Positions 34,292-53,878 of a stretch of DNA of 64,000 nt are shown one piece after another. Each line of letters begins with the position of its first letter. Position 1 is the first letter of the stretch. The stretch spans positions 145,868-209,867 of the forward strand of contig JAKSQM010000004.1 of assembly GCA_024404115.1 (NCBI GenBank), in the 5' to 3' direction. Position numbers and translations under genes: made by a program. This DNA comes from Clostridia bacterium (GTDB lineage: Bacteria; Bacillota; Clostridia; Oscillospirales; Acutalibacteraceae). The notes beneath the pieces were generated by a model, which saw nothing but the letters and a program-made list of their open reading frames with translations, was not told the origin of the DNA and searched no databases.

Positions 34292-34783
34292 ATGGATAAT
34301 AAACTTAAACCAAGAGAAAGGCTTTTTTGCTTTTATTTTTGTCAAAGCAGAAGCCCACGGTTGGCGGCGGCAAACGCAGGCTACGGAGTCTTTGCAAAAC
34401 GAGCGGCTGCAAAGCTTATATGCAGAACTGATATTCAATCGGAAATTGAAAGACTTGATTCTGTGATGCCTGTCAGCGAAAAAGAAATTGTCAGCGGATA
34501 CCGCAATCTTGCATTCGGCTCAGCGGCAGACGCTTTTTCGCTTGTTTTGTGCGATGCCGAAACTCTTGGCGAAATGGAAATTGAGAACCTTGACCTTTTA
34601 AATGTGAGCGAAATAAAAAAGCCAAAAGGCGGCGGAATTGAAATAAAATTTTTTGACCGCCTTAAAGCTCTTGAAAAATTGCAGGAGCTTTCATCCTCAC
34701 AGGGTGGCGGTGAAACGCCTGCATTTTATGACGCAATTGAAAAAAGTGCCGCTGCATTAAAGGAGGATTTTAATGCGGAATAG
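34292..34783 (+). CDS. Phage terminase small subunit
   Basis: 163 residues. The start MDNKLKPRERLFCFYFCQS and the helix-turn-helix AAANAGYGVFAKRAAAKLI resemble Terminase_2 (PBSX XtmA-type) proteins that recognise packaging DNA. AAAGGAG lies 6 nt before the ATG at 34292; the frame extends to 34148 without a plausible start. It overlaps the large terminase by 11 bp. Confidence 0.85.
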   Translation: MDNKLKPRERLFCFYFCQSRSPRLAAANAGYGVFAKRAAAKLICRTDIQSEIERLDSVMPVSEKEIVSGYRNLAFGSAADAFSLVLCDAETLGEMEIENLDLLNVSEIKKPKGGGIEIKFFDRLKALEKLQELSSSQGGGETPAFYDAIEKSAAALKEDFNAE

Positions 34784-36065
34784 CACAGCGGCAAATTTTG
34801 AAAAATTCTCACAAAAACAGCTCACCGTTCTTAACTGGTGGAGCAGAACATCGCCTTACAGAGAAAAGGATGCAATTATCTGTGATGGCGCAGTTCGCTC
34901 CGGCAAAACCGTGTGTACTTCTCTTTCGTTTATTATCTGGTCCTTTTATGATTTCAACGATACTTCATTTGCTCTTTGCGGCAAAACCATTGCATCATTA
35001 AAACGAAATTTAATTGTGCCAATGAAGCCTTTACTTACCTCCCTCGGTTTTGAATGTAAAGAAAAAATGTCAAAGAATCTTATGGAAATTTCATACAGGA
35101 ACAGAACAAACCGATTTTATCTTTTCGGCGGAAAAGATGAAGGCTCAGCTTCACTTATTCAGGGCATGACCTTAGGCGGAATTCTCCTTGACGAGGTGGC
35201 GCTTATGCCACGCTCCTTTGTGGAGCAGGCTATCGCCCGATGCTCCCTCGAAAACTCTCGCCTTTGGTTTAACTGTAATCCAGAGCATCCAATGCACTGG
35301 TTTTACAGGGAATGGATAAAGAAAGCACAAGAGAAAAACTGCCTTTATCTTCACTTCACAATGAAAGATAATCCAGGTCTTTCAGCAGGTATCAGAAAGC
35401 GATATGAATCTCTTTATTCGGGTGCTTTTTATCAGAGATTTGTGGAGGGTAAATGGGTTGCCGCCTATGGCACTGTTTACCCGATGTTCAGCCACGATAT
35501 TCATGTTAAAGAGCCACCCGAAGGTGAGGCAGAGGAATATTATATTTCCTGCGACTACGGAACAGTGAACCCATGCTCGGCGGGGCTTTGGGGAAGATTT
35601 GGCGGCAAGTGGTACAGAATAGACGAATACTATTATGATTCACGCAGGGAGGGGGAGCAGAAAACCGATTTTGAGCATTACCTTGCAATCGATAAGCTTG
35701 CAAGGCAAAGAGAAATCGAAGCGATTATTGTTGACCCCTCTGCCGCCAGCTTCATTCAGTGTATCCGCCGTGAGGGAAAATTCAAGGTTATTCCAGCCAA
35801 AAATGATGTTGTTGACGGCATAAGGCTGGTGTCTGACGCTCTTAAAAAAAGAGAGTTTTTTATATCGCCAAGGTGCCACGATATTCTGAGAGAATTTTCA
35901 CTTTACAGATGGGACGAAAAGTCGTTGAGGGACGCACCTCTTAAAGAGAATGACCACGCAATGGACGATATGCGTTATTTCATTGCAACGGCATTGAACA
36001 GACCCGAAAGCGACTTTTTCGCCCTGAGTGTTGACAGAAAGGAGAAACAGAATTGGGACTTTTAA
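34773..36065 (+). CDS. Phage terminase large subunit (PBSX type)
   Basis: 430 residues. ATPase domain with Walker A GAVRSGKT near residue 40 and Walker B GILLDEVAL near 137; RNase H-like nuclease with CDYGTVNP near 254, VDPSAAS and DHAMDDMRYF near the end. All key acidic residues are present, so it looks functional. It packages DNA into procapsids through the portal. The end overlaps the portal gene. Confidence 0.93.
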   Translation: MRNSTAANFEKFSQKQLTVLNWWSRTSPYREKDAIICDGAVRSGKTVCTSLSFIIWSFYDFNDTSFALCGKTIASLKRNLIVPMKPLLTSLGFECKEKMSKNLMEISYRNRTNRFYLFGGKDEGSASLIQGMTLGGILLDEVALMPRSFVEQAIARCSLENSRLWFNCNPEHPMHWFYREWIKKAQEKNCLYLHFTMKDNPGLSAGIRKRYESLYSGAFYQRFVEGKWVAAYGTVYPMFSHDIHVKEPPEGEAEEYYISCDYGTVNPCSAGLWGRFGGKWYRIDEYYYDSRREGEQKTDFEHYLAIDKLARQREIEAIIVDPSAASFIQCIRREGKFKVIPAKNDVVDGIRLVSDALKKREFFISPRCHDILREFSLYRWDEKSLRDAPLKENDHAMDDMRYFIATALNRPESDFFALSVDRKEKQNWDF

Positions 36066-37201
36066 AAAGACTTTCTGAATCTAAAACGGCTGTATCGGTG
36101 CCGCAGACATATAAGCCCAATCCGTTCAACTTCTTAAACGGCTATGTTCCGCTTTTTAACGGCTACACAAGCCTTTACCGTGAGCTTCGTGAGGCAATCC
36201 CCATAATTGATGCGGCAATTTACAAGCTTGTTCGCCTTACAGTGGGGTTCAGAATAGAATGTACCGATGAAAAAAATACAGAGAAAATCAACAGCTTTTT
36301 AGGTGAAATCCCAGTTGGTTCAAACAGATACGGCATTTATGAGTTTATCTCCTCTTATTTTGAACAGCTTCTCACCTATGGCACAGCAGTTGGTGAAATG
36401 GTAACAGATAAAAGAGGAAATCTTGCCGCTCTTTTTAATGCGGATTTAAGAAATATCGAGCTTAAAAAGAGTGATGACGGCATGAAAACTCTTGTCTGCA
36501 CAGGCTCCTTAGGAATGGCTGAGCCTGTGAAATATCAGAATCTTGTGCTTTTATCGGTGCTTAACCCTGAGGGGGACAGCATTTGCGGTGTATCGCTTCT
36601 GAAAGGATTGCCTTTTGTCAGCGGAATTATCACAAAAATTTTCACCACAATCGGTGAAAACTGGGAGAGGGCAGGCAATGTCCGCTATGCCGTTACATAC
36701 AAGCCTCAGAATGATGTAATGGATAGAGCCTATGCCAGAGAACGGGCACAGCAGGTTGCAAAGGAATGGGGCGAAGCTATGAAAGCAGGCGGCCCCGTAA
36801 GAGATTTTGTTGCTGTTGGCGATGTTTCAATCAAAGCCATTGGTGCAGATAATCAGATACTTGACTGCGAAGTTCCCGCAAGGCTTATGCTGGAGCAGAT
36901 AGTGGCAAAAACGGGCATTCCTCCTTTTCTTTTAGGTCTTTCATGGTCATCAACAGAGCGAATGTCAAGCCAGCAGGCAGATTTGCTCACAAGCGAGCTT
37001 GAAGCTTACAGGCGAATACTCACACCCGTCATTCTGAAAATCTGCAGCACTTACCTTAAACTTAACGGTATTGCAGATAAGCCCACCGTTGTGTGGGATG
37101 ACATAACGCTTCAGGATGAGGTTGAGCAGAGCAGGGCAAGGCTTTATGATGCCCAGAGGATGAAAATTGAAAACGAACTGAAAGGAGAAAACAATGGCTG
37201 A
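36053..37201 (+). CDS. Phage portal protein
   Basis: 382 residues; matches HK97/SPP1-type portals in layout. The N-terminus anchors (VPLFNGYTSLYRELREA), followed by a central wing-stem-clip region and GIPPFLLGLSWSSTERMSS, a stretch typical of portals. A TTG start at 36053 is used with AAAGGAG 8 nt upstream. It overlaps terL by 13 bp and the protease gene by 8 bp. The predicted product is intact. Confidence 0.9.
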   Translation: MGLLKRLSESKTAVSVPQTYKPNPFNFLNGYVPLFNGYTSLYRELREAIPIIDAAIYKLVRLTVGFRIECTDEKNTEKINSFLGEIPVGSNRYGIYEFISSYFEQLLTYGTAVGEMVTDKRGNLAALFNADLRNIELKKSDDGMKTLVCTGSLGMAEPVKYQNLVLLSVLNPEGDSICGVSLLKGLPFVSGIITKIFTTIGENWERAGNVRYAVTYKPQNDVMDRAYARERAQQVAKEWGEAMKAGGPVRDFVAVGDVSIKAIGADNQILDCEVPARLMLEQIVAKTGIPPFLLGLSWSSTERMSSQQADLLTSELEAYRRILTPVILKICSTYLKLNGIADKPTVVWDDITLQDEVEQSRARLYDAQRMKIENELKGENNG

Positions 37202-38162
37202 AAACTATAAACCGCAGGCAAAGGGCGTTTCAGCACAGGAGCTGGCGCTGATAAATAAATTAACCTATAAAGAGCTTTCGGCAGAAGAGGTTTTTTCATT
37301 CAGCGTTAATCTTTGCGATAATGAAATTGACAGGGACGGCGATTGCTTTGACGACATGGCACTTGAAAAACTCAGTGAGCTTTTTATAGGCGTAACGGGA
37401 ATTTTTGACCATATTCATTCAAGCAAGAATCAGACAGCAAGAATATATTCTGCCTCTGTTGTGGGTGCAGAGGGCAGGCTCACTTCACAGGGCAAGCCTT
37501 ATAAAGCACTGAGAGCCAAGGCGTATATGCCAAAAACTGATGACACTGTCCCCATCATGGAAAAAATAAATGCAGGCATTTTAAAGGAGGTCAGCGTTTG
37601 CTGTTCCGTTGAAAATTACACCTGCTCAATTTGCGGAAACGATTTAAGAAGTGAAAAATGCACCCATATCAAGGGTGTGGAATATAACGGCAGTCTTTGT
37701 TATTGCGTTCTCAAAGAGCCTAAAGATGCCTACGAGTGGTCTTTCGTCGCCATACCTGCTCAGCCGGGTGCAGGCGTAACAAAAGGTTTTGAAAAAAGCA
37801 AGGTTGCCAAAACCTTTTCTGAATGCGAAAAATCCTTGAAATCAGGACGAGAAATCCTGATAGACAGCGTTCTTTCAAAAAAGATGGGCGAAAAGCTCAC
37901 AAAGCTTCAGAAAGATGCGGCTTTGGGCAGAGAATACAAAAACGATATTACGGCGCAGATTATCCGTTATTCATCAATGATTCTTGATGATTTCGATTCC
38001 GCCTCTGTTAAGAAAATGTGCGAAACACTTGATATTGACGAGCTGAAAGCATTGCGTGAATCACTTGTTTCAAAGGTGGCACAGCAGGTTCCACTTGAGC
38101 CTCAGCTTGTGTGCGCACCTGTTAAGGCAGAGAGCGGCTCAAACAACGATTTTATATTTTAA
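37194..38162 (+). CDS. Phage capsid maturation protease with scaffold-like C-terminus
   Basis: 322 residues. The N-terminal 200 resemble prohead proteases (FSVNLCDNEIDRDGDCFDD, GIFDHIHSS, KEVSVCCSVE with the likely Ser nucleophile, WSFVAIPAQPGAGVTKGF). A CSICGNDL-C-H segment at about 142-155 could bind metal. The C-terminal 120 are helical and would act as scaffold. It sits between portal and capsid, the usual place. The family call rests on position and motif pattern. Confidence 0.75.
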   Translation: MAENYKPQAKGVSAQELALINKLTYKELSAEEVFSFSVNLCDNEIDRDGDCFDDMALEKLSELFIGVTGIFDHIHSSKNQTARIYSASVVGAEGRLTSQGKPYKALRAKAYMPKTDDTVPIMEKINAGILKEVSVCCSVENYTCSICGNDLRSEKCTHIKGVEYNGSLCYCVLKEPKDAYEWSFVAIPAQPGAGVTKGFEKSKVAKTFSECEKSLKSGREILIDSVLSKKMGEKLTKLQKDAALGREYKNDITAQIIRYSSMILDDFDSASVKKMCETLDIDELKALRESLVSKVAQQVPLEPQLVCAPVKAESGSNNDFIF

Positions 38163-38176
38163 CAAGGAGGTTTTTT

Positions 38177-39220
38177 ATGTCTTTTGACAATTTAAGACTT
38201 GAAAAAGGAATGTACGGCAACGGCTGCACATTCACTCAGATGCTCGAAAAGGCAGACCCATCTGAAAATTACAGAGGTACTGCCCTTGAGGGTCTTGACG
38301 CATTCCAGCGTCAGCTTAAAAGATTTGATATAAAGGTGTCGGGACCCGACAGCAGTGTTGTTGGCAAATTCTTCCAGACATCAGATGCGGCGGTGCTTTT
38401 CCCCGAATATCTCACAAGGGTTATCCGCTGCGGAATTGACGAGGCAAATTATCTTTCAAGCATTGTTGCAACCACAACAAATGTTGACTCAATGGATTAC
38501 AGAGCTGTTGATTTCAAGCTGGATTATGACACTGCAACAGATGCAAAGAAAAGAGAAATATGGCCGTCTCTTCCTGAGGGTGAGCTGGTGCCCGAGGTAC
38601 AGTATACAATCGGGGACAGGCTTGTAAGGCTTCGCAAAAGAGGCAAAATGTTCTCTGCTTCTTACGATGCTATCCGCTTCCAGCGTCTTGATGTTGTGGC
38701 GGTTGCGCTCAAAAAAATCGGTGCATCAATGGCTCACAATATTACAGCCGACGCTATGAAAACAATCTATGACGGTGATGATGCAGACGGCACAAACGCT
38801 GCCGAGGTCAAATCCGTCAGCACATTCAATTTCAACAATCTTGTTGATTTCTGGGCAGGCTTTTCGCCCTATAAGCTGACAACGCTTATCACAACCCCTG
38901 CGGTGGCGGCAACGCTTATTAAAATGACCGAATTCAGAGATGCGGCGGCAGGTCTTGACTTCCACGGCACAGGCAAGCTCATTTCGCCATTTGGTGCAGA
39001 CCTTATCTCTGCAAAGGGACTTGTGCCCGACTCCGCAATTGTTGGCCTTGATAAGAGCTGTGCCCTTGAACATCTCAAGGTTGGCGATATTGAGGTTGAA
39101 TACGGCAAGCTTATTGACCATCAGCTGGAGCAGGTGGTTATAACATCAATTAACGGCTTTGCAAAAATCTTTGAGGGCGCAAGCGGAGTTATGGCAACCT
39201 CCGGTGGCGATAAATGGTAA
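38177..39220 (+). CDS. Phage major capsid protein
   Basis: 347 residues. Position after the protease, length and the long Lys/Arg-rich central region fit an HK97-fold capsid protein (FPEYLTRVIRCGIDEA, RLRKRGKMFSASYDAIRFQ). AAGGAGG lies 7 nt before the ATG. The gene is intact and overlaps the next by 7 bp. Confidence 0.85.
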   Translation: MSFDNLRLEKGMYGNGCTFTQMLEKADPSENYRGTALEGLDAFQRQLKRFDIKVSGPDSSVVGKFFQTSDAAVLFPEYLTRVIRCGIDEANYLSSIVATTTNVDSMDYRAVDFKLDYDTATDAKKREIWPSLPEGELVPEVQYTIGDRLVRLRKRGKMFSASYDAIRFQRLDVVAVALKKIGASMAHNITADAMKTIYDGDDADGTNAAEVKSVSTFNFNNLVDFWAGFSPYKLTTLITTPAVAATLIKMTEFRDAAAGLDFHGTGKLISPFGADLISAKGLVPDSAIVGLDKSCALEHLKVGDIEVEYGKLIDHQLEQVVITSINGFAKIFEGASGVMATSGGDKW

Positions 39221-39594
39221 ACGAGCTTGATGTTTATGAGGTTCTGAAGCATCTGACAGCGGTGGACAGCACTCAGGAAATCATTGATTTATGCGCCCAG
39301 TGCTTTGAGTCAATCGTTAAAGAGCTGAAAAGCGGAACGGATACAGACGACCCGAGAATCCTTAATGCGGCTGCGGCAAAGGCGTTTTATCTTCTTTGCG
39401 TTAAAGAGAAATCAGCTCAGACGGGCGGTGAAATCACTTCCTTTAAAGCAGGCGATTTAAGCGTTTCACAAAAAAGCAGTGAGGCTGGCAGTAAGCTTGA
39501 AGCTGCCAGAAAGCTCTATGAATCTGAATTGAAAAAGCTCACCCCTTTATATGAGGACACAGGCTTTTTTGCAGGAAAGGTTGATATTACATGA
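39214..39594 (+). CDS. Phage head-tail connector-size protein
   Basis: 126 residues, mostly helical (MVNELDVYEVLKHLTAVDST...). Size, helical content and place after the capsid gene fit a connector or head-completion protein. No specific family is recognised. It overlaps both neighbours, as in tightly packed phage operons. Confidence 0.6.
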   Translation: MVNELDVYEVLKHLTAVDSTQEIIDLCAQCFESIVKELKSGTDTDDPRILNAAAAKAFYLLCVKEKSAQTGGEITSFKAGDLSVSQKSSEAGSKLEAARKLYESELKKLTPLYEDTGFFAGKVDIT

Positions 39595-39938
39595 ATGGAC
39601 TTGATATCAGCACAATGTTCAAAAAATTCGGCAGAGAAATAAGGCTTACCCGCGATGACGGCTGGTATTCGCCGATTTTTCACGGATTCATTCAGCCGCT
39701 GCGTTATAAAAATAAAATCTACCTTGACGGTGTTTATACGGTTATCGGCTTTGATAATCAGGGCAAATATCTTTATATCGGTCCGCCGGAGCATGACCTT
39801 ACAGTTTTTGACACAACGCAGGGTTATATTGAGGCGGACGGAGTTAAATACACCGTTGACCGAGCAGAAAAAGTTTATTATTCAGACACGCCTGTTTATA
39901 TATGGGCAATTATCAGAGAAGTTGTGGAGGTGTTATAA
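39591..39938 (+). CDS. Phage head-closure-size protein
   Basis: 115 residues, beta-rich with GWYSPIFHGFIQPLRYKNK and a DRAEKVYYSDTPVYIWAI end. Minor head or stopper proteins at this operon position have similar size and fold content. Its last base is shared with the next start. Family not firmly assigned. Confidence 0.6.
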   Translation: MNGLDISTMFKKFGREIRLTRDDGWYSPIFHGFIQPLRYKNKIYLDGVYTVIGFDNQGKYLYIGPPEHDLTVFDTTQGYIEADGVKYTVDRAEKVYYSDTPVYIWAIIREVVEVL

Positions 39939-40771
39939 TGGATTCAATAGTTGCACTGCCCTCAAAAATTGTTGACTGGCTTTCAACAAGACCTCAGCTC
40001 AGGGATATAAATTTCTTTACTGAATTTCCTCCTATCAATAAAGCTGTCCCCCTTAAAAAAGCCATTGTTGCAGTTGGCATACAGGAGCTGAAAATCGTTG
40101 ACAAGTTTGTTGAGAATGCAGAGGGCATTCTTGAAAGGCAGGAATATTGCAGAACGGCAGATATTCACGCAAGGCTCAGCATATGTGTGCCTTATTCGTA
40201 CGGTGGCTCAGCTTGCCATGAGATTTTCACAAAAATTATGGACGAGCTGACATTCTGCACGGATCTGAATATTACAGAATCTGACTGCGGAGAGATTGAA
40301 TCCGACAGAAACACCAGCGCACTTGTGCTGGGAGGCGGCTTTAAAATCAGCGCAGATTTCTGCCCTGGCGAGGTTGCCGATGACCATTATATTTCATTTC
40401 TTGATAAGGAGTTCCTTTGCGGCTCTCATATCAGAAATGAAGAGGTTCATGTTACCAACGAGGATAAAGCCAAATGGAACAACCCGTTTTTTGTGGGTAC
40501 ATATTTTGGCACAGGCTCAACCAGCAGGACAATTGAAGTCGGTTTCAAGCCAAGAATGATAATTCTTTTTTGCAGCGATTGCGCACCGTTTGAAATAAAT
40601 TTCGGCACGCAAAAGATTTTTGTGAATTTTGCCTTTGGTTCGGGCAATTACTGCACGCAGGGCATTTCGCTTACATCAAACGGATTCAAGGTCAGCAAAA
40701 GCACATTCAATAACTGCACCACTTCATTTAATGATACGGGCATGATATATTGCTATGCGGCAATGAAATAA
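39938..40771 (+). CDS. Neck-type protein fused to a tail-fibre-like C-terminal domain
   Basis: 277 residues. Residues 1-150 resemble small neck or tail-completion proteins in size and fold content. Residues 167-180 contain HVTNEDKAKWN, a linker pattern common in phage fibres. Residues 185-277 (GTYFGTGSTSRTIEVGFKP, then TGMIYCYAAMK at the end) resemble fibre tip domains of the GxxxGxGxxSRTIxLGFxPK type. The ATG at 39938 has GTGGAGG upstream. It is the last gene of the head module; no tail tube or tape measure follows. Confidence 0.6.
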   Translation: MDSIVALPSKIVDWLSTRPQLRDINFFTEFPPINKAVPLKKAIVAVGIQELKIVDKFVENAEGILERQEYCRTADIHARLSICVPYSYGGSACHEIFTKIMDELTFCTDLNITESDCGEIESDRNTSALVLGGGFKISADFCPGEVADDHYISFLDKEFLCGSHIRNEEVHVTNEDKAKWNNPFFVGTYFGTGSTSRTIEVGFKPRMIILFCSDCAPFEINFGTQKIFVNFAFGSGNYCTQGISLTSNGFKVSKSTFNNCTTSFNDTGMIYCYAAMK

Positions 40772-40776
40772 AAAAT

Positions 40777-40861
40777 GGACTGCCGCATTTAGCGCAGACC
40801 GAAAAGTAAAAAATAAAAAAGATGGTTTTAAAAGTAGAAACTACTGTTTAAGACCATCTTT
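40777..40861 (+). repeat. Structured repeat copy C, also a bidirectional terminator
   Basis: Starts GGACTGCCGCATTTAGCGCA and continues GACCGAAAA, 29 bases identical to copy B. An A-rich spacer and a hairpin with arms AAAGATGGT (40818-40826) and ACCATCTTT (40853-40861) follow. Loop and inner stem keep GAAACT and GTTTAA as in copy B although the outer stem sequence differs. It separates the phage head module from the convergent CPBP gene. Confidence 0.75.
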
Positions 40862-40914
40862 GTTTTATTGTGAAATATTATTTAAAATTGATTTTACTTT
40901 TCTAAGTGTTTTTG

Positions 40915-42129: not shown

Positions 42130-42147
42130 CTAAAACACCTCTGCCGC

Positions 42148-42176
42148 ATTATATCATAAAAAAATAATGTTTACAA
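42148..42176 (-). promoter_or_regulatory. Promoter of the CPBP gene
   Basis: On the minus strand TTGTAA (42176-42171), 17 bp, TATAAT (42153-42148). The -35 box overlaps the end of the FkbM gene. Confidence 0.7.
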
Positions 42177-43244: not shown

Positions 43245-43258
43245 CGCAAAATCTCCTA

Positions 43259-45512: not shown

Positions 45513-45514
45513 AA

Positions 45515-46492: not shown

Positions 46493-46499
46493 ATAAAAC

Positions 46500-46527
46500 G
46501 GGGATTGCCTTAATCGGTAATCCCCAA
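46500..46527. terminator. Bidirectional terminator
   Basis: GGGGATTGCC and GGTAATCCCC arms around a short loop, followed by AAAATTTTTGTTTTT. It ends the glycosidase-esterase operon and, on the other strand, the SdpI-like gene. Confidence 0.82.
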
Positions 46528-46538
46528 AATTTTTGTTT

Positions 46539-47000
46539 TTATTTTGATTTCTTCTCTGCTTTTTCAGCCTTTTTCTTTTCTTTCTTTTCAATTGCTTCGT
46601 TTTCAGCTGCAATTGATTCTTCAGTTCTTGCGCCACGGTCATCAAAATTCTTTTTAAGTCGTCCTTCAACAACAAGAATTGTGATGATGATTGCAACTAT
46701 CTGAAGAGCCTGAACAAGAATTGTGAAAATGCTGATTTCGTCAACATTTTTATTAAAAGCCAGCGCAAAAATTCCCGCTGAAACAGGGATAAGAATAAGA
46801 CCTGTCAGTCGCCAGATTTTGCCCAGCTGATTGTGTGCATAAGCCCAGCTATCCCATGTTTTAATTGAACGCTGTGTGCGATAACCAAAAACTGTGTTTA
46901 TTTTTTTAGGTGCACCATCTTTATAAAAATGCTGACCGAAAAATATCAGCAAAACAGGAATAATAAGAACAATAACAAGCATACATAACCAGTAACCCAT
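46539..47000 (-). CDS. SdpI family membrane protein
   Basis: 153 residues with three or four transmembrane segments. The FGYRTQRSIKTWDSWAYAH motif is diagnostic of the SdpI family, whose type member gives immunity to the SdpC toxin in Bacillus. No toxin gene is seen nearby. The end is an unusual Lys/Glu-rich cytoplasmic tail. AAGGAGG lies 8 nt before the ATG. Confidence 0.82.
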   Translation of the reverse strand: MGYWLCMLVIVLIIPVLLIFFGQHFYKDGAPKKINTVFGYRTQRSIKTWDSWAYAHNQLGKIWRLTGLILIPVSAGIFALAFNKNVDEISIFTILVQALQIVAIIITILVVEGRLKKNFDDRGARTEESIAAENEAIEKKEKKKAEKAEKKSK

Positions 47001-47019
47001 AAAACCGCCTCCTTAAACC

Positions 47020-47048
47020 ATTCTATCACATATTTTCTTATTTTTCAA
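47020..47048 (-). promoter_or_regulatory. Promoter of the SdpI-like gene
   Basis: On the minus strand TTGAAA (47048-47043), 17 bp, TAGAAT (47025-47020). Confidence 0.6.
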
Positions 47049-47066
47049 CAATTTGTTTTGTGTTTC

Positions 47067-47591
47067 TTAACGAGAAGCGTCCTCAGCATCTGCCCAGTTG
47101 AATTTTGTAAGCTTGCCTTCGCAAAGAAGTTCGGGAAAATCCCACTGGCGAAGCACCTCATATGCGGCAATTGCAACGGAGTTTGAAAGGTTAAGGCTTC
47201 TTGCGGCGGCATTGTTTATCATAGGGATTCTGACGCAATTTTCGGGATTGTTAAAAAGCAAATCCTCTGGAAGTCCCTTTGTTTCTTTGCCAAAAAACAG
47301 ATACGAATTATCTTCGTATTTCACATCAGAATATCTGTTAAGAGCCTTTGTTGTGAAAAAATAAAAATTGCCCTTATTTTTGCTGAAAAAATCATCAAGA
47401 TTTTTATAATATGTAATATCAAGCAGGTGCCAGTAATCAAGACCTGCTCTTTTTAATTTTTTATCGTCAATTGTGAAACCCATTGGCTCAATTATGTGAA
47501 GCCTTGCACCAGTTGCAGCACAGGTTCTTGCAATGTTGCCTGTGTTCTGTGGAATTTCGGGCTCAACTAAAACAATATTTAAAACAGACAT
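47067..47591 (-). CDS. trmL: tRNA (cytidine(34)-2'-O)-methyltransferase
   Basis: 174 residues, SPOUT fold. N-terminal VLVEPEIPQNTGNIART and the knot motifs YLFFGKETKGLP and RSLNLSNSVAIAAYEVLRQ match TrmL, which methylates the wobble base of tRNA-Leu. The ATG at 47591 gives MSVLNIVLVEP; a TTG two codons upstream is less likely. Confidence 0.93.
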   Translation of the reverse strand: MSVLNIVLVEPEIPQNTGNIARTCAATGARLHIIEPMGFTIDDKKLKRAGLDYWHLLDITYYKNLDDFFSKNKGNFYFFTTKALNRYSDVKYEDNSYLFFGKETKGLPEDLLFNNPENCVRIPMINNAAARSLNLSNSVAIAAYEVLRQWDFPELLCEGKLTKFNWADAEDASR

Positions 47592-47672
47592 TTTCAAATT
47601 CTTCTTTCGGTTTAATAGAATATTCAGCTTAATTCTTCAGATAATAATAAAAAATATAATGGAGGAATTAAG

Positions 47673-47858
47673 ATGCAGAAAAAAACATCAGCAGTTGTTA
47701 AATCTGTAGGCTTCGGTATGCTTGCAGGCGGAGCTGTGGCAGCAATGGGCAGCCTTATGATGGGCTCTTCAAGCCATAAATACCGCAAGATAATGAATAA
47801 AGCCGCAAAAAATGCAGGCAATTTCATTGACTCGATTTCAAACACACTGGGAATGTAA
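47673..47858 (+). CDS. Small alanine/glycine-rich protein of unknown function
   Basis: 61 residues: a hydrophobic Gly/Ala/Met segment at 13-31 (one membrane helix or hairpin), then a basic region with SSSHKYRKIMNKAAKNAG. It has a clean GGAGG 7 nt before the ATG and a terminator after the stop, so it looks real. The pattern resembles small DUF-type spore or envelope proteins of Clostridia, without firm match. Confidence 0.6.
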   Translation: MQKKTSAVVKSVGFGMLAGGAVAAMGSLMMGSSSHKYRKIMNKAAKNAGNFIDSISNTLGM

Positions 47859-47871
47859 CACTGATTATAAC

Positions 47872-47914
47872 AAAAACAGCTCAGTAAAGCAAGTGCCTTA
47901 CGGGGCTGTTTTTT
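47872..47914. terminator. Bidirectional terminator between the small gene and pth
   Basis: AACAGC (47875-47880) pairs with GCTGTT (47905-47910), with an inner GTAA/TTAC stem and A-run/T-run flanks. Confidence 0.8.
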
Positions 47915-47917
47915 ATG

Positions 47918-48520
47918 TTAATTAAACTTGTTCATCGCCAAATCTGTTTTGCCGTCTGCAATAAGCCTTAAAGCTTCGCAGGCATTGACAATAGCGGATT
48001 TCAGCTCTTCCATTTCATCTTTTTTGAATGTGGAAAGCACCCAGTCTGCAAGGTCATAATCGGGGTGAGGCTTTGCGCCAACGCCAACCTTAACTCTTGG
48101 AAAAGCATCACTTTTTAAATGGTAGATAATGCTTTTGATGCCGTTGTGTCCTCCGTCAGAGCCTTTTCTGCGAACTCTCAGCTTTCCGCAGGGGAGAGAA
48201 ATATCGTCAAAAATAACAATAACTTTTTCAGGCGGAATTTTATAAAAAGCACATACCTCTCTGACAGCTTCACCGCTGTTGTTCATAAAGGTCTGGGGTT
48301 TAATAACAATGCACCTGTGCCCGTTGAGCTTAACCTCGCCCATAAGCGATTTGAACTTGATTTTGTTGATTTTAAAATTTTCTTCTGCTGCCAGCCTGTC
48401 CAGTGTGAGAAAGCCTGTGTTGTGGCGGGTGTATTCATATTTATCGCCAGGGTTGCCAAGACCCACAATAAGAAATTCGGGCGCAGAAGAATCTGAAAAC
48501 TCTTTTTTCTTAAAAAACAT
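47918..48520 (-). CDS. pth: Peptidyl-tRNA hydrolase
   Basis: 200 residues. VGLGNPGDKYEYTRHNTGF contains catalytic His33, and KPQTFMNNSGEAV plus GSDGGHNGIKSI complete the active site. It recycles tRNA from peptidyl-tRNA released by stalled ribosomes. The first 14 residues are a short extension compared with most family members. It follows glmU and the lipoprotein, a classical glmU-pth neighbourhood. Confidence 0.95.
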   Translation of the reverse strand: MFFKKKEFSDSSAPEFLIVGLGNPGDKYEYTRHNTGFLTLDRLAAEENFKINKIKFKSLMGEVKLNGHRCIVIKPQTFMNNSGEAVREVCAFYKIPPEKVIVIFDDISLPCGKLRVRRKGSDGGHNGIKSIIYHLKSDAFPRVKVGVGAKPHPDYDLADWVLSTFKKDEMEELKSAIVNACEALRLIADGKTDLAMNKFN

Positions 48521-48529
48521 CTTAACCTC

Positions 48530-49219
48530 TTAGTGAATATCCATGGTTTTGAGCTGAGAGTTTTCCCAGTCAATGTCGCCCATTGTGCTGTCAACAAGTA
48601 TATATTCAAGCTGAATAGAAATATCCTTGAATGCTTCTTCAAGTGCTTTTTCATCATATTTTGACATATCTGCAATGCCGAGAACATCAACCTGATAAAC
48701 TGAACCGGGAACAATGGCATATTCAGCATCAAGAGCTGTTTTAATCCAGATGTCTTTTTTGCCGTGATAATCAACCTTTAGGCTTCTGAAAGCCATTGCT
48801 TTGTTTGATTTATTTTCAATGTATTCAACAAAAGAAAATTCCTGAAAATCTGATTTTTCATCTTTTGCTTTCTCAACTTCTTCTTTTGTCATATGATAAT
48901 CTCTTTCACCAACAGTTGAAGAGAAGCGTTTGCTTTGGATTTCACCAGTTTCAGCGATTTCGATTTTATCTGCGTTATCAAAATCAATGTTTATCTGAGC
49001 TTCCTTTTCTTTTCCGTCAGGTGTGGTAACTTTATAAGTATAAACGGCAGTTCCGTCTTTCTGTGAAAGATTGCTGTAGTCAATAACTCCACCGTCTTTG
49101 TTTGAGTTTGTTTTTTTGCTTGTGTCGCCGCCGCTTCTGCTTACTGTGCAGCTGCAAAATGAACCCATAATTGAAAATACACATAAAAGGCTGATAGCTT
49201 TTATAAATTTGCTTTTCAT
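48530..49219 (-). CDS. Lipoprotein of unknown function
   Basis: 229 residues. MKSKFIKAISLLCVFSIMG followed by SFCSC is a lipoprotein signal peptide with lipidated Cys. The mature part is Lys/Asp/Glu-rich with DGTAVYTYKVTTPDGKEKE and later strands; no family is recognised. The ATG at 49219 overlaps the glmU stop and has AGGAGG upstream. It lies 9 bp before pth, so it belongs to the glmU operon. Confidence 0.78.
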   Translation of the reverse strand: MKSKFIKAISLLCVFSIMGSFCSCTVSRSGGDTSKKTNSNKDGGVIDYSNLSQKDGTAVYTYKVTTPDGKEKEAQINIDFDNADKIEIAETGEIQSKRFSSTVGERDYHMTKEEVEKAKDEKSDFQEFSFVEYIENKSNKAMAFRSLKVDYHGKKDIWIKTALDAEYAIVPGSVYQVDVLGIADMSKYDEKALEEAFKDISIQLEYILVDSTMGDIDWENSQLKTMDIH

Positions 49220-50622
49220 TTTGTTTCCTCCTTTTTCTGCCATCTGTATGGCTTAACCTTATTTACCCAATCCTCTTTGACAACCTGTCTTGAGCGTGCA
49301 ATTGCAAGGGCGTCTTTCGGTACATCCTCTGTTATAACAGAGCCTGCGGCAGTGAAAGCGTTTTCGCCAACCTCAACGGGGGCAACAAGATATGTGCTGC
49401 AGCCGATAAATGCGTTATCGCCAACAATAGTTTTGTTTTTATCTCTGCCGTTAAAGTTAACTGTTGCGCAGCCGCAGCCAACATTGATGTTTTTGCCGAA
49501 TTCAGCATCACCAATATAAGAAAGGTGAGAAACAGAGGTCTTTTCGCCGATTCTTGCATTTTTAAGCTCAACAAAGTTGCCGACTCTCACATTTTCACCA
49601 ACAACGCAATCGGGTCTGATTCTTACAAACGGGCCGATATGTGCGCCAGCCTTAACCTCAGATGAATAAACCTGTGTGCTGTTAAGCTCAACACCGTCAT
49701 GGACTACAGAGTTTTCAATAAGGCTGTTGGGGCCGATTTCACATTCCTTGCCGATTGTGCAATTGCCTTTGATAATTGTGCCGGGGAGTATCTGAGTATC
49801 TGCGCCGATTTCAGCGTCGGGGCTGATGATAACTCCGTCAATGCAGGGGATTGAAACACCGTTTTTCATGTGCTTAACAAGAATCTGCTTTCTTGCAATT
49901 TCGTTAAGCTCATAAAGCTGTGCTCTGTCGTTTGCACCAAGAACAACATCAGCTGTTTTTGCAGTGAATGCTGCCGCTTTGCCACCCTTTGAAAGGATGA
50001 TTTCAATAGCGTCTGTAAGATAGTATTCTTTTGAAGCGTCTGTGTGATTCTCTGCAAGAGTGTCAAGTGCAGATAAAAGTGCCTTTGCACTGAACCAGAA
50101 TGCGCCAGAGTTTACCTCGTCAATCTTTTTCTGCTCCTCAGTGGCTTCTTTCTGCTCAACAATTTTCTGAAGCAGACCGTCATCACTTCGCTGAATTCTG
50201 CCGTAGCCAAAGGGATTAGCCACTTTTGCAGAAATAACAGTTGCGCAGTTGCCGCTTTCTTTATGGAACTGAAGAGCGTTGCTGATTGTTTCAGAATCCA
50301 TAAGCGGAGCATCACCGTTAAGGATAAGCACATCGCCGTCAATATGCTCCTTTATAAAATCCTTTGCCTGCATAACCGCATGACCTGTGCCAAGTCGCTG
50401 GGACTGGAAAACAGTTGCACATTTGCCGTCAAGATGCTCTTCAAGAATTTCGTGTCTGTAGCCTGTAACAACGCAGATGTCCTCTACTCCGCCACCCTGA
50501 GCCGCTGAAATAACCCAGTTTATCATTGGCTTGAAAAGCACCTGTGCCATTACCTTTGGTTTTGACGATTTCATTCTTGTACCCTCGCCACCTGCAAGAA
50601 TAACTGAACAAACAGAATTCAT
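49216..50622 (-). CDS. glmU: Bifunctional UDP-N-acetylglucosamine pyrophosphorylase / glucosamine-1-phosphate acetyltransferase
   Basis: 468 residues. The N-terminal uridyltransferase has LAGGEGTRMKSSKPKVM; the C-terminal half is a left-handed beta-helix with acetyltransferase motifs such as RIRPDCVVGENVRVGNFVE and SYIGDAEFG. Product UDP-GlcNAc feeds peptidoglycan. The ATG at 50622 is best: AGGAGG ends 7 nt upstream, while the in-frame ATG at 50628 is too close. Confidence 0.95.
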   Translation of the reverse strand: MNSVCSVILAGGEGTRMKSSKPKVMAQVLFKPMINWVISAAQGGGVEDICVVTGYRHEILEEHLDGKCATVFQSQRLGTGHAVMQAKDFIKEHIDGDVLILNGDAPLMDSETISNALQFHKESGNCATVISAKVANPFGYGRIQRSDDGLLQKIVEQKEATEEQKKIDEVNSGAFWFSAKALLSALDTLAENHTDASKEYYLTDAIEIILSKGGKAAAFTAKTADVVLGANDRAQLYELNEIARKQILVKHMKNGVSIPCIDGVIISPDAEIGADTQILPGTIIKGNCTIGKECEIGPNSLIENSVVHDGVELNSTQVYSSEVKAGAHIGPFVRIRPDCVVGENVRVGNFVELKNARIGEKTSVSHLSYIGDAEFGKNINVGCGCATVNFNGRDKNKTIVGDNAFIGCSTYLVAPVEVGENAFTAAGSVITEDVPKDALAIARSRQVVKEDWVNKVKPYRWQKKEETK

Positions 50623-50650
50623 ATACATACCTCCTGATGTTGTATATCAT

Positions 50651-50678
50651 ATTATACACATTATGTTTAAAATTACAA
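50651..50678 (-). promoter_or_regulatory. Promoter of the glmU operon
   Basis: On the minus strand TTGTAA (50678-50673), 16 bp, TATAAT (50656-50651). It lies just after the phage repressor gene stop. Confidence 0.65.
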
Positions 50679-50694
50679 GTGAGAATTTTTCCAC

Positions 50695-51288
50695 TTAAAA
50701 TTTTCTTCTTAATTCCACAACCTTGCCGACTATTGAAACAGGCAGGCGTGAAATATCCTCTGCACTGAAATCCATAACAGAGTAATCTGTGTTAAAGGGA
50801 ATGAGCGAAATGCCCGTTCCTTTTTTTACTACCTTTTTAACAGTTGCGTCCATTGAATTAACAAGCACAACTGCCACATCACCGCTGTCAATATCTGCCT
50901 GCTTTCTGACGATTACAACATCGCCCTCATACATTTTTGGCTCCATACTGTTTCCTTTAATATATAGGGCAAAAAATTCGCCGCTTTTTGCAAGGGACGG
51001 TGATATTTCTTCATAATCCACAACCTCTTCAATTGCTTCAACAGGAATACCTGCTCTCACATATCCAAGCACAGGAATTTTAATTCCCGCTGAGGTAGAT
51101 TCTCTGCCGCCGAGAATTGCGTCGATTGAAGCACCGAGCACCTGAGAAAGAATTCTCAACGATTCAGTGTCGGGCATTGTTCTGCCCTTTTCCCACTGGC
51201 TGACCGCTGTCTGGTGAACTCCGCACAGCTGTGCAAGCCTTGCCTGAGTGAGATTTTTCTCTGTTCTGAGTGCTTTTATGTTGTTCAT
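50695..51288 (-). CDS. LexA/CI-type self-cleaving repressor
   Basis: 197 residues. Residues 1-60 form an XRE helix-turn-helix (LTQARLAQLCGVHQTAVSQW). Residues 70-197 form an S24 peptidase: cleavage site Ala79-Gly80 in GYVRAGIP, nucleophile Ser114 in GNSMEP and base Lys151 in DATVKKV. Such repressors cleave themselves when RecA is activated by DNA damage. The ATG at 51288 has GGAGG 8 nt upstream. It is divergent from the lysis cassette and shares operators with it. Confidence 0.92.
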   Translation of the reverse strand: MNNIKALRTEKNLTQARLAQLCGVHQTAVSQWEKGRTMPDTESLRILSQVLGASIDAILGGRESTSAGIKIPVLGYVRAGIPVEAIEEVVDYEEISPSLAKSGEFFALYIKGNSMEPKMYEGDVVIVRKQADIDSGDVAVVLVNSMDATVKKVVKKGTGISLIPFNTDYSVMDFSAEDISRLPVSIVGKVVELRRKF

Positions 51289-51322
51289 TTTCCCGTCCTC
51301 CAAAAACGATTGCTCTTATATT

Positions 51323-51351
51323 ATTATGAGCTATTCTATTATTTATGTCAA
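51323..51351 (-). promoter_or_regulatory. Promoter of the repressor gene
   Basis: On the minus strand TTGACA (51351-51346), 17 bp, CATAAT (51328-51323). The operator at 51329-51361 covers its spacer and -35 box. Confidence 0.7.
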
Positions 51352-51361
51352 TAGAATAGCT
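51329..51361. promoter_or_regulatory. Operator 1: 12-bp inverted repeat
   Basis: AGCTATTCTATT (51329-51340) and AATAGAATAGCT (51350-51361) are perfect inverted arms with a 9-bp spacer. It covers the repressor's own promoter, which suggests autorepression. Confidence 0.75.
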
Positions 51362-51379
51362 TTAAAAACAGAAAAACTA

Positions 51380-51408
51380 TTGACAAACCGAACAAATGTT
51401 CTTATAAT
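51380..51408 (+). promoter_or_regulatory. Promoter of the lysis cassette
   Basis: TTGACA at 51380-51385, 17 bp, TATAAT at 51403-51408: a consensus promoter that would need repression to stay silent. Confidence 0.8.
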
Positions 51409-51416
51409 AATAGATG

Positions 51417-51432
51417 TGCTATTCAATTAGCA
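51417..51432. promoter_or_regulatory. Operator 2 at the lysis cassette start site
   Basis: TGCTATTCAATTAGCA is an imperfect palindrome with TGCTA/TAGCA arms. It repeats the GCTATTC half-site of operator 1 and lies at the predicted transcription start of the lysis cassette. Confidence 0.65.
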
Positions 51433-51463
51433 TATGGTATTCGCCGCTCAAAGGAGGTAAGAG

Positions 51464-52108
51464 GTGAACACAATAACTGATAACTCAATTTTACTTACCG
51501 AAGCTGAATTTGCCCTTAAAGAAATGAAAAAATGCGGCTATGAAGCTGATGAAAGTCTGGAAACTATAGATTCATATGTCAACAGAATCAGAACTGTTTC
51601 TGTTTCACGACTTGTGAACTATGTTATAGAAAACAAACTCACCGAAATTCAGAAATATTGTCTGAAGGATTATTGGTTTAATGATATAACCCCTGCTGAA
51701 ACGGCGCAGAAATTATCCGTGTCTGTGAGGACAGTGTACTCCTCACGGGCAAAGGCGCAGAATATTTTAAAAGAATATCTGGAGCCTGTTATTATGTATC
51801 TGCGTTCACTTCCTTCGGCAGACATTATGCCTGCGGTGATTGATGAATCACGAAGAATCCTGAAAGCAAAAAGCGCACAGGGTCAAAATTTTGAAAGTGC
51901 GCTTAAAGACATCCGACTGACTTTCGGAGCTGAAACTGCACTTGCGGCAGCAGCTTTGGGGATTGAAGAAAAGGAACTGATTAAAAAAGAAGAATCAAAC
52001 AGCCAGCCGACCCTTGCGGAGCTTGCAGCTTACAGCAAGGCGTTCAAAACAAAAATCACGCTTGAATTTAACAACGGAAACGGGGAGATAAAATGGAAAA
52101 AACATTAA
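51464..52108 (+). CDS. Phage-type regulator with sigma-70 region 4-like helix-turn-helix
   Basis: 214 residues. Residues 60-105 (LTEIQKYCLKDYWFNDITPA, then ETAQKLSVSVRTVYSSRAKA) form a sigma region 4-like helix-turn-helix found in phage late regulators. The C-terminal 80 residues are of unknown fold. A GTG start at 51464 follows AAAGGAGG by 7 nt. As first gene under the repressed promoter it may activate the rest of the cassette or other loci such as the head module; that is inference. Confidence 0.75.
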   Translation: MNTITDNSILLTEAEFALKEMKKCGYEADESLETIDSYVNRIRTVSVSRLVNYVIENKLTEIQKYCLKDYWFNDITPAETAQKLSVSVRTVYSSRAKAQNILKEYLEPVIMYLRSLPSADIMPAVIDESRRILKAKSAQGQNFESALKDIRLTFGAETALAAAALGIEEKELIKKEESNSQPTLAELAAYSKAFKTKITLEFNNGNGEIKWKKH

Positions 52109-52323
52109 CCCAGCTGGGACTTGAATATCTTGAAGCGGCACAGAGGATGGACTACCTGATTAAAAAATGCACACATGACCTGAAGGTTGCAACAGCCGAA
52201 AGAGATTATAGAAAATGCCTCATCCTCAAGCAGAAAAGGCTCGTTTTTTATAGTCAGAAAAGAGATCTTATGGAAACCGCATATAAACTTCAGAATTATT
52301 ACCGAAGGGAGGGATGCCAGTGA
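52093..52323 (+). CDS. Small coiled-coil protein of the lysis cassette
   Basis: 76 residues, almost fully helical and charged (LGLEYLEAAQRMDYLIKKC...), consistent with a coiled coil. It overlaps the upstream gene by 16 bp and the next start by 4 bp. No family recognised. Confidence 0.6.
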   Translation: MEKTLTQLGLEYLEAAQRMDYLIKKCTHDLKVATAERDYRKCLILKQKRLVFYSQKRDLMETAYKLQNYYRREGCQ

Positions 52324-52703
52324 ATAACATCAGCTTAACTGTAAACGGCAATAAATTATCATATTCGGGCGGCACAATGCCCGCAAGCGGCAGCTGCCAA
52401 TATGATAAATGCCTTTTCAGTTTTGACTCTGAATGGAACACATTCTCAAAAACAATTGTTTTCTCAAAAGGAAACGGCGAGGAATATAAAGAAATTCTCA
52501 CAGGCTCATATTGCACAATACCTGAGGAGGTGCTGAGAACGGCAGGTGTGCTTAAAATCGGCGTTGTGGGCATAAACAATGCAGGCACAATCATCTCAAC
52601 CAATCAGGTGTCCGTCAGGGTAAGGCGAGGGGCAAATGAATCAGAAACGGTGCCCGTTGCCCTTGCACTTAATATGCTTGACAGCGGAGGTGCAGTTGGT
52701 TGA
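52320..52703 (+). CDS. Phage fibre/baseplate-associated protein
   Basis: 127 residues, beta-rich. The pattern FSFDSEWNTFSKTIVFSKG, CTIPEEVL, LKIGVVGIN and STNQVSVRVRRGA resembles N-terminal domains of receptor-binding or baseplate proteins of Gram-positive phages. A GTG at 52320 is preferred over ATG 52314 because GGGAGG is 7 nt before the GTG and the GTGA overlap couples it to the gene before. Exact role unknown. Confidence 0.6.
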   Translation: MNNISLTVNGNKLSYSGGTMPASGSCQYDKCLFSFDSEWNTFSKTIVFSKGNGEEYKEILTGSYCTIPEEVLRTAGVLKIGVVGINNAGTIISTNQVSVRVRRGANESETVPVALALNMLDSGGAVG

Positions 52704-53386
52704 GCCATGTTACAGACATAATTTTTAATTATGAAAGCAATTATCTCACATCGCCGTTTGGCAAAAGGGCGGTGATTTCCACCTCGGCAGGGGATACTTC
52801 ATCTTTTCACAACGGGGCGGATTATGGCACAAACGGCAAAAAGCTTCCCCAGTTTGCCCTTGAGGACGGCATAATTCTCTCTTGCGGAACAGCGGCAGAC
52901 GGCGCAAATTACATATGGATAAGTTACCCCAGAATCGGCAAAAAACTGCTTCATTATCATCTTGATTCAATATCTGTTAAGGCAGGTCAGCGTGTTGTGA
53001 AAGGCACACGACTTGGCACAACGGGCATGACAGGCAAGGCGACGGGGATTCATCTTCATTTAGGTGTTAAAGACCTTGACACAAATAAATATGAAGACCC
53101 CGAAATTTTTTCGCAAAATTACACTGAGCCTACATCTAAAAGAGCAGGAGTTTATAAGGTAACAGCTGATATTCTCAATGTAAGAACGGGAGCGGCAATA
53201 TCGTATGCAGTGAGAAAATTCAGCAGCTTAACCAAAGAAGCTCAAAGGCAGATAAAAGCTCTTTGCGGTTATGAATGTAACGGATATGTCAAGGGTGTTG
53301 TCTGTGATGTTTCGCAGGTAGAAAACCGTTGCTGGGGCAAAACTCCCTCTGGCTGGATTGACCTTGATTATTGCACGGAGCTTTAA
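52700..53386 (+). CDS. M23-family endolysin with C-terminal wall-binding region
   Basis: 228 residues. Residues 10-135 are an M23 metallopeptidase: FHNGADYG (HxxxD zinc ligands) and HLHLG (HxH). Residues 145-228 form an SH3-like wall-binding domain (YKVTADILNVRTG, SGWIDLDYC). No signal peptide, so release would depend on the holin. A TTG start at 52700 is used with GGAGG 9 nt upstream and overlap with the previous stop. Confidence 0.87.
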   Translation: MSHVTDIIFNYESNYLTSPFGKRAVISTSAGDTSSFHNGADYGTNGKKLPQFALEDGIILSCGTAADGANYIWISYPRIGKKLLHYHLDSISVKAGQRVVKGTRLGTTGMTGKATGIHLHLGVKDLDTNKYEDPEIFSQNYTEPTSKRAGVYKVTADILNVRTGAAISYAVRKFSSLTKEAQRQIKALCGYECNGYVKGVVCDVSQVENRCWGKTPSGWIDLDYCTEL

Positions 53387-53387
53387 T

Positions 53388-53621
53388 ATGACAAATGAAA
53401 CACTGATAGCTTTTCTCTCTTTTTCGGGAACGCTTATTGGCACCATGGGAGGTATAATTGCGTCAAGCAGGCTGACAAGCTACAGAATATCTCAGCTTGA
53501 AAAAAAGGTGGAAAAGCACAACAACCTTGTTGAAAGAATGGTGAGCGTTGAGGATTCTGTGAAATCTGCTCACCATAGAATAGATGAAATTGTGGCAGAT
53601 AAAAAAGGGGGGAACGGATGA
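53388..53621 (+). CDS. XhlA-like lysis accessory protein
   Basis: 77 residues: one N-terminal transmembrane segment (FLSFSGTLIGTMGGIIAS) followed by a coiled coil (QLEKKVEKHNNLVERMVSVE). This layout matches XhlA/hemolysin-type proteins encoded next to holins. The ATG at 53388 has GGAG upstream; the stop overlaps the holin start. Confidence 0.75.
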   Translation: MTNETLIAFLSFSGTLIGTMGGIIASSRLTSYRISQLEKKVEKHNNLVERMVSVEDSVKSAHHRIDEIVADKKGGNG

Positions 53622-53878
53622 ATAAGCTTAACTTAAAAAGCGTGGATAAATCCACATGGATCAGAACTATCGTTCTTTTTGCGGCACTTCTTAATCAGGC
53701 ACTTGTGATGTTTGGCGTTACAAGAAATGCTATTGATGAAAATTCCCTTGCCCATATCCTGTCTTACATAATGACAGTGGCAAGTGCTGTCTGGAGCTGG
53801 TGGAAAAATAACAGCTTCACAGAAAAGGCACAGGAGGCAGACGGCTACCTTAAAGGAGAATACGGCGCAAAGGGTTAA
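53618..53878 (+). CDS. Phage holin, phiLC3 family
   Basis: 86 residues. Start MNKLNLKSVDKSTWIRTIVL, two transmembrane segments, and WSWWKNNSFTEKAQEAD near the end are typical of the phiLC3 holin family. It would open the membrane to let the endolysin reach the wall. Last gene of the cassette. Confidence 0.9.
   Translation: MNKLNLKSVDKSTWIRTIVLFAALLNQALVMFGVTRNAIDENSLAHILSYIMTVASAVWSWWKNNSFTEKAQEADGYLKGEYGAKG

Follow-up and report, generated by a model that had tools for sequence, protein, structure and literature searches.

Among the described systems closest to the one considered here is FpGTA, a gene transfer agent (GTA) of Faecalibacterium published in January 2026 (Nat Commun; PMC12946183), so that a GTA spread over two loci is already a known kind. 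As set out in the part of that report available to us, the first operon, FpGTA I, holds packaging and capsid genes (terminase, portal, scaffold and capsid) in 10.5 kb and ten open reading frames (ORFs) and is present in 12/12 genomes. The second, FpGTA II, a 5.5 kb operon of fibre, receptor-binding and lysis genes, was detected in 5/12 genomes, lying ~125 kb away in one strain. The particles are 40 nm in size, no tail could be identified on them, and the host DNA packed in them is 8.4-9 kb long. GTA-like packing is also reported for R. callidus (4.6 kb), CAG-115 and Gemmiger, with no FpGTA homologue in Gemmiger; the same part of the report names no gene cluster for these three. It says in general that SOS induction of GTAs is likely; for FpGTA itself it gives neither a regulator nor an SOS box (PMC12946183). 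The subject of this study is a stretch of 64,000 nucleotides from a Clostridia bacterium (the window; contig JAKSQM010000004.1 of assembly GCA_024404115.1), part of contig C34 in our numbering of a draft genome of 2.43 Mb, which carries a phage-derived head module (locus I) and a cassette of regulatory and lysis genes (locus II). These genes are best explained, by a wide margin, as a domesticated GTA-like system under SOS control, and we consider it likely that they encode a vertically inherited particle system spread over these two chromosomal loci, plus a probable third locus for fibres in the same genome.

Three other systems invite comparison. PBSX of Bacillus subtilis is alike in its SOS induction, in its repressor, sigma-like late activator and XhlA, holin and endolysin genes, and in packing host DNA; it forms one cluster with a contractile tail, whereas the genes described here occupy two or three loci with no recognised tail. 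PBSX packs DNA but does not inject it. Capsid-forming phage-inducible chromosomal islands (cf-PICIs) likewise combine head and packaging genes without tail genes, but they are mobile satellites with integrase and replication genes, unlike the vertically descending genes found here, which have a lysis locus of their own. RcGTA of Rhodobacter capsulatus differs in its unrelated host phylum, its siphovirus-type tail and its other control circuits. What it shares with the window is the placing of head and lysis genes at separate loci (PMC9638019). The layout of FpGTA, compared here at the level of genes, is similar in its two loci, in the lysis genes of the second and in the lack of replication genes (PMC12946183). 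FpGTA II holds baseplate genes, whereas no Baseplate_J match was found in 18/18 genomes of the window's genus, and the main text of the FpGTA report does not mention a regulator, whereas locus II has one (PMC12946183). The tail-less anatomy, the protein fusion, the regulatory wiring and the family-wide range given below were not found in the published GTA literature that we searched.

Conservation, selection and descent of the two loci

Locus I (34292-40771) is an eight-gene head and neck set, all on the plus strand and with every frame open. It begins with terS, for the small terminase (34292-34783; PF03592, Terminase_2, E 2.3e-7; phrog_51/2606), whose frame is open already from 34148 and whose N-terminal region, conserved in the alignment, is presumably a helix-turn-helix (HTH). 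There follow terL, for the large terminase (34773-36065; phrog_2, E 1.2e-48), the portal gene (36053-37201; phrog_30703, E 1.2e-132), a probable protease/scaffold-type head gene (37194-38162; phrog_16951, E 3.5e-98, a family with no annotated function, and a weak match to phrog_4523, a 'major head and protease' family) and the major capsid gene (38177-39220; phrog_3922, E 4.4e-70; PF25209, E 1.3e-11). The head-tail adaptor (39214-39594; phrog_541, E 1.6e-4) and a head-closure-type neck protein, the role of which is suggested by its position (39591-39938), are found in the same order in relatives, and the set ends with a gene (39902-40771) read from relatives' gene maps and the alignment as a tail-terminator-like/fibre-tip fusion. 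The genes at 39591 and 39902 gave no confident family in profile searches (Pfam, PHROG) and were identified through relatives. An initial annotation of this DNA had listed intact terS, terL, portal, protease, capsid and neck genes; profile matches for six at 34.15-39.6 kb and the open frames agree with it. The last gene does belong to the module, as that annotation had it, but is the fusion just named and not a plain neck gene.

The capsid gene was found in 31/60 relatives searched, namely 18/18 of the genus (window included), 12/19 of the remaining family and 1/23 from other families of the order. G021 has one copy, with an internal stop. G004 has two copies; the second, more divergent capsid with neck genes (52-55% identity to the window) lies on a separate contig, C152 (L050, 3.4 kb), and may be another element or contamination. 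An even draw of 398 genomes of the family contained the capsid in 229 (189/287 of those of good quality) and in 82/135 genera, as a single copy in 226/229 carriers; an even draw of the class contained it in 11/391. The 11 named public relatives (44-49% identity) come from uncultured Ruminococcus, Clostridia and Clostridiales, and from Clostridium minihomine, and the family is probably a Ruminococcus-allied family of Clostridia.

The eight genes of the head module, and their order, are the same throughout the genus. At a coverage of at least 80%, the capsid, protease-type, adaptor and closure proteins and both halves of the last gene are present in 18/18 genomes, and terL, terS and portal in 16/18; G001 and G007 lose the first head genes at contig ends. 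Every genus genome has locus II genes. Its regulator and its endolysin (at high score) were each found in 17/18, and the misses lie at contig ends, the contig of G007 stopping inside the fibre gene and that of G017 starting there. The neighbours of the head module on both sides are common to the window, G013, G005 and G009, and another set of neighbours on both sides to G002, G003, G004, G006, G010, G012, G014 and G015; the downstream neighbour of this second set is found in G008 and G001 too, and G007 is cut short. From these neighbour sets, the position of the module is kept within subclades and changed between them, so that the check on conserved position suggested with the initial annotation came out well in subclades of four and eight genomes but failed in G017, G011 and G016. 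The split into two loci is also found in relatives. A single intact prophage spanning both gene sets, named beforehand as evidence to the contrary, was not seen among the loci mapped.

Selection was gauged by the ratio of non-synonymous to synonymous substitution rates (dN/dS), given as medians of pairwise NG86 values for genus pairs with dS <2 (10-100 pairs per gene); dS is imprecise at these distances and only the gross level of the ratio is readable. The medians in locus I were 0.056 for terL, 0.105 for the portal, 0.109 for terS and for the closure protein, 0.117 for the capsid, 0.142 for the protease-type protein and 0.180 for the adaptor, while the two halves of the last gene gave 0.084 (N half) and 0.296 (C half). 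Those in locus II were 0.170 for the regulator, 0.150 for the small protein and for the endolysin, 0.142 for the XhlA-like protein and 0.179 for the holin. The housekeeping reference, glmU, gave 0.105. Each of the 15 gene sets has a median well below 1, and the ratios in both loci are of the order of that of glmU, as expected under the purifying selection for which a check had been proposed.

Protein distances across 17 genus genomes correlate at 0.92 between head module and glmU, 0.86 between locus II and glmU, and 0.85 between head module and locus II, and in a permutation test 0/2000 permutations reached the observed values. In the same three comparisons the trees have 9, 8 and 8 of 14 splits in common (shuffled means 0.2-0.3). 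Because the distances correlate and the trees share splits with that of glmU, the sequences argue for mainly vertical descent of both loci and not for repeated infection. What is found here is thus what marks a GTA: phage-derived structural and packaging genes that lie in a chromosome, are inherited vertically and are under purifying selection.

A prophage in decay, divided by rearrangement, that has lost its integrase, replication and tail genes and whose remaining genes are drifting would account for the short fibre of the window and G003, the split fibre of G006, the truncated portal of G010, the lack of tail genes near the head and the other neighbours in three genus genomes. Drift does not agree with capsid frames that are open in 18/18 species or with dN/dS well below 1 in 15/15 gene sets, and the same two-locus split in relatives, the congruence of the trees and the conserved promoter elements described below also speak against decay. 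This explanation is already disfavoured by the tests of selection and descent, and we give it very little credence. Frameshifts or relaxed selection in the head genes had been named as signs of it; the open capsids and low ratios show neither, but the portal of G010 is truncated. Such erosion in single species (the portal of G010; the fibres of the window, G003 and G006) shows that the system is not indispensable everywhere.

The fused last gene and the loss of recognised tail genes

The protein encoded by the last head gene, counted from its conserved start at 39938, is tail-terminator-like to about residue 150 and continues as a C-terminal fibre-tip domain. An ordinary neck protein was considered and ruled out because the halves match separate places ~4.5 kb apart in three relatives (L055-L057). 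In tailed relatives the N half is a separate small gene ahead of the tail genes (with only ~20% identity between the two), and the C half forms the last part of another gene, downstream of the baseplate; in the window's genus both halves are in one protein with nothing between them. The fusion protein is a candidate receptor-binding collar of a tail-less particle, and the fast evolution of its C half (dN/dS 0.296) fits a receptor-binding part.

The state of the tail was mapped in 40 further loci of the family, hand-picked from the 229 carriers with the best scores first and mostly one per genus, and the class counts are accordingly not those of a random sample. Sheath and baseplate were present in 4, and a baseplate without recognised sheath in 24; 4 were tail-less with the fused last gene, 5 tail-less with the N half only, and 3 cut off or unclear. 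The sheath family is phrog_279 (E 1e-49). A search for tail genes elsewhere on the chromosome had been proposed with the initial annotation. The genus has lost the recognised tail genes: no match to Baseplate_J (PF04865) and no sheath above the cut-off were found in 18/18 genomes, with one weak sub-threshold sheath match in G003; other baseplate and tail families lay outside these genome-wide searches. The relatives suggest an order of reduction from sheath and baseplate, through a baseplate without recognised sheath, to the tail-less form with the fused protein.

A search of viral contigs by capsid alignment gave 294 relatives; 80 were retained, and gene maps were drawn for the 30 measuring at least 11 kb; the same search with the portal alone found nothing. 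The sheath family is present in 26/30 of the mapped loci; apart from the structural set, each family recurs in six loci at most. In a Pfam scan of ten unshared ORFs from six viral loci, matches to an integrase, to an S24 repressor and, weakly, to Rep were confined to L167. On this contig (L167/L344, IMGVR_UViG_3300001598_003442), ~0.7 kb beyond the downstream end of a tail-less head module, lies a second, temperate prophage, to which the integrase and CI belong and which has a terminase of its own; L167 was for this reason rejected as an autonomous phage with this head. The L167 integrase aside, relatives' gene maps show neither integrase nor replication genes in linkage with the structural ones, the unshared ORFs being identified in part. 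Five matches labelled 'Bacteriophage sp.' had suggested true phages. For the longest, MT835508.1 (L157), which was the one examined, this was rejected: genes for ribosomal protein S5 and SecY mark it as a piece of bacterial chromosome, and it turned up in the search because of its embedded head module.

These searches bear on a satellite of cf-PICI type, which would make its own heads and borrow tails from a helper phage. A tail-less set of head and packaging genes is cf-PICI content, and one viral contig (L167) does have a separate prophage beside such a module. Satellites of this type are mobile and have an integrase and replication genes of their own; a Pfam scan of 29 window frames gave no match to either, which bears out the statement in the initial annotation that neither locus has them, and the 30 viral loci share no non-structural family in more than six. 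The vertical descent, the co-inherited lysis and regulator locus and the system's own fused binding part also oppose this explanation, which we regard as highly unlikely. The marks of an intact prophage (integrase, replication genes and a complete tail set) were not found in the window scans and the Baseplate_J and sheath searches.

Locus II, its control elements and a third fibre locus

The order of genes in locus II (50695-53878) is, across the genus, regulator, small protein, fibre, endolysin, XhlA-like protein and holin, with cI divergent where present. The window has a cI-type repressor with an S24 peptidase domain on the minus strand (50695-51303; PF00717, E 4e-26; HTH_3, E 5e-16), in which we recognise what we take to be the Ser, Lys and Ala-Gly motifs of S24 peptidases. 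The others are on the plus strand. The regulator (51464-52108) has a sigma-70 region-4-like domain (a weak match) and a C-terminal HTH, and a sequence search against solved structures gave nothing significant for it. Next come a conserved small protein found in the same place in relatives (52093-52323), a truncated fibre/adaptor protein of 129 aa (52314-52703), an M23 endopeptidase as endolysin (52700-53386; PF01551, E 5.9e-13), an XhlA-like small protein (53358-53621; phrog_1863, E 1.8e-16, function not annotated) and an SPP1-type holin (53618-53878; PF04688, E 5.4e-29). The repressor, regulator, endolysin and holin had been placed at 50.7-53.9 kb beforehand, and the S24/HTH_3, weak sigma-70 region-4, M23 and SPP1 matches support those assignments. 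A small protein does lie between endolysin and holin where XhlA had been called, but its family is unconfirmed, and 'XhlA-like' is a label for size and position only. The supposed 'fibre-associated protein' at 52314-52703 is indeed of fibre type, but truncated, the same fibre having 615-659 aa in 13 genus genomes, 529 aa in G017 and 595 aa in G007 (the last two at contig ends). The one full-length fibre scanned, that of G005, has an M14 carboxypeptidase domain.

The promoter of the regulator (TTGACA-17 bp-TATAAT, 51380-51408, plus strand) has a LexA/SOS box, GAACAAATGTTC, between its two elements at 51390-51401, the call resting on what we take to be the Gram-positive LexA consensus. The box, GAACNNNNGTTC, is exact in 14/17 genus loci with upstream DNA, one base off in G005 and G009, and absent in G007. 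The pattern GAACAWWTGTTC occurs at four sites in the whole 2.43 Mb of the window's own genome, and its reverse at none. One site is that of the regulator, one ends ~36 bases ahead of a fibre gene pair on contig C1 (locus III, below), one lies before the gene for a Y-family polymerase, which provides an internal control for the SOS box (Pfam IMS, E 2e-26), and one has no evident target. The TTGACA-17-TATAAT geometry is common to the regulator, locus III fibre and polymerase sites.

The repressor gene is divergent in 12 genus genomes, absent in five (G003, G007, G010, G014 and G015; G010 is also the genome with the truncated portal) and not visible in G017. Two candidate CI operators flank the promoter region in the window: TTATGAGCTATTCTATT (51324-51340), which has similar sites in relatives and in its window copy did not match the search pattern, and AATAGATGTGCTATT (51409-51423), which corresponds to the operator pattern of genus loci with cI. 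This pattern, drawn up from these same sequences, is present in 12/12 genus loci with cI and 0/5 without; the SOS box is retained in four of the five cI-less loci.

A conserved element, TA(A/T)GG(G/A)TGA(A/G)(A/G), lies at 34236-34248 (plus strand), 56 bases before the start codon of terS. As TA(N)GG(N)TGA(R), a pattern built from genus sequences and expected 0.009 times per stretch, it was found in the window and 15/15 genus relatives having that stretch, and in 3/62 other loci. It is a candidate promoter or regulatory site of the head operon and may be the site where the locus II regulator, the candidate activator of that operon, acts. Looser matches to the regulator occur in 398/398 family genomes owing to its generic HTH parts, and carriers of a near-full-length form were counted by hand, at E 1e-18 or better and with most of both domains covered. 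There were 38 among the 398 genomes, and 37/38 also have the capsid, vs 229/398 overall (hypergeometric 6e-9 by genome; by genus 11/11 vs 82/135, p 0.003). The sole carrier without capsid is a 56% complete genome. Among six sampled genomes of genus g298, only G811 has the capsid, and only G811 has the regulator.

The pair of fibre genes that forms locus III (304 and 404 aa; contig C1, L318 9949-12061) gave no Pfam match. The first protein is related to the N-terminus of the locus II fibre, and the locus III fibre is possibly replacing the truncated one of locus II. Good-scoring matches to it are limited to the window's genome and, at 35% identity, G017, where no SOS box lies within the surrounding 2.8 kb; locus III is for this reason not claimed genus-wide.

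The control and lysis genes also allow a killing or self-lysis device, in which SOS-induced lysis would release head particles that harm relatives, or would be altruistic suicide, as with PBSX. The parts resemble those of PBSX (repressor, sigma-like activator, XhlA, holin), and no injection machine was found. A pure killer would have no need of the terminase, portal and neck genes, which are here under strong purifying selection, and there is no tail to kill with. We consider such a device unlikely.

The genes between and beside the loci are of host type, as had been stated for those between them (SpoU methylase, Pth and others by Pfam): GH95, HAD, FkbM methyltransferase, GDSL lipase, SdpI, SpoU methylase (trmL), Pth and GH38. 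Two scanned window frames outside the loci have no Pfam match at all. Directly upstream of the head operon in the window, a Big_2-domain protein is encoded on the minus strand (33389-34147); its gene is absent from that place in three relatives with the same flanks.

Proposed working of the system and its significance

The presence of the capsid in 18/18 genus genomes, the gene order, the selection, the congruent trees and the SOS box together support the view, put forward in the initial annotation, of a domesticated, DNA-damage-inducible particle or DNA-transfer system, the particles and the transfer themselves being predictions from sequence. Acting on the elements present in the window, DNA damage would free the box within the regulator promoter of LexA and cause CI to cleave itself. 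The sigma-region-4-like regulator and the lysis genes would then be made, and the regulator would switch on the distant head operon through the element ahead of terS. TerS and TerL with the portal, protease-type and capsid proteins would build a DNA-filled head, and since no replication or integration genes were found linked to it, the packed DNA should be host DNA. The head would be closed by the neck proteins together with a ring formed by the terminator-fibre fusion, the ring standing in for a tail as the receptor-binding organ, and the holin and endolysin, to judge by their families, would lyse the producing cell. We propose, as a tentative but real possibility, a minimal tail-less GTA in which the terminator ring is fused to a former fibre tip and the head binds recipients directly by its neck, with genes over three loci under SOS and activator control, as the last stage of a reduction that runs from sheathed through sheathless to tail-less forms across one Clostridia family.

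Several points weigh against a GTA-like system. It is known in this genus from its genes alone, and the assembly of the source genome is a draft (83.8% complete). For a particle without a tail, no way of delivering DNA is proven; no tail genes lie near the head module, tape-measure and siphophage-type tail families being outside the genome-wide searches. The portal of G010 (L036 11551-11826) consists of the first 92 residues only, which may reflect a deletion or an assembly error, and the locus II fibre is short in the window (129 aa) and in G003 (120 aa) and lies in two frames in G006. The neighbours of the head module in G017, which stands beside the window in the head tree, and in G011 and G016 match neither of the two sets. 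Capsid distances alone correlate at 0.76 with glmU and 0.62 with locus II. Five genus genomes have no cI, and one of them, G007, also has no SOS box. The co-occurrence of regulator and capsid is not independent across genomes, and the regulator wiring is not general, because 192/229 capsid carriers in the family have no near-full-length regulator. Relatives of the endolysin also occur as extra copies (e.g. in G017, G008 and G020), so that the endolysin alone is not diagnostic. The TerS of FpGTA is reported, in the part of the paper available, to have no obvious DNA-binding domain, whereas that of the window keeps a conserved N-terminus (PMC12946183).

On balance, a Ruminococcus-related group of Clostridia appears to have kept a virus-derived DNA-packing shell and cell-bursting genes at two places over long evolutionary time, and some cells probably burst, releasing particles with bits of bacterial DNA. 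If this is true, host-made DNA-packing particles would be an old and widespread trait of a large Ruminococcus-related family of Clostridia rather than something peculiar to Faecalibacterium. For the packing reported in R. callidus, CAG-115 and Gemmiger (PMC12946183), the capsid family found here would be a direct candidate. A tail-less form in which terminator and binding domain are fused would mark how far a phage-derived DNA carrier can shrink and still work.

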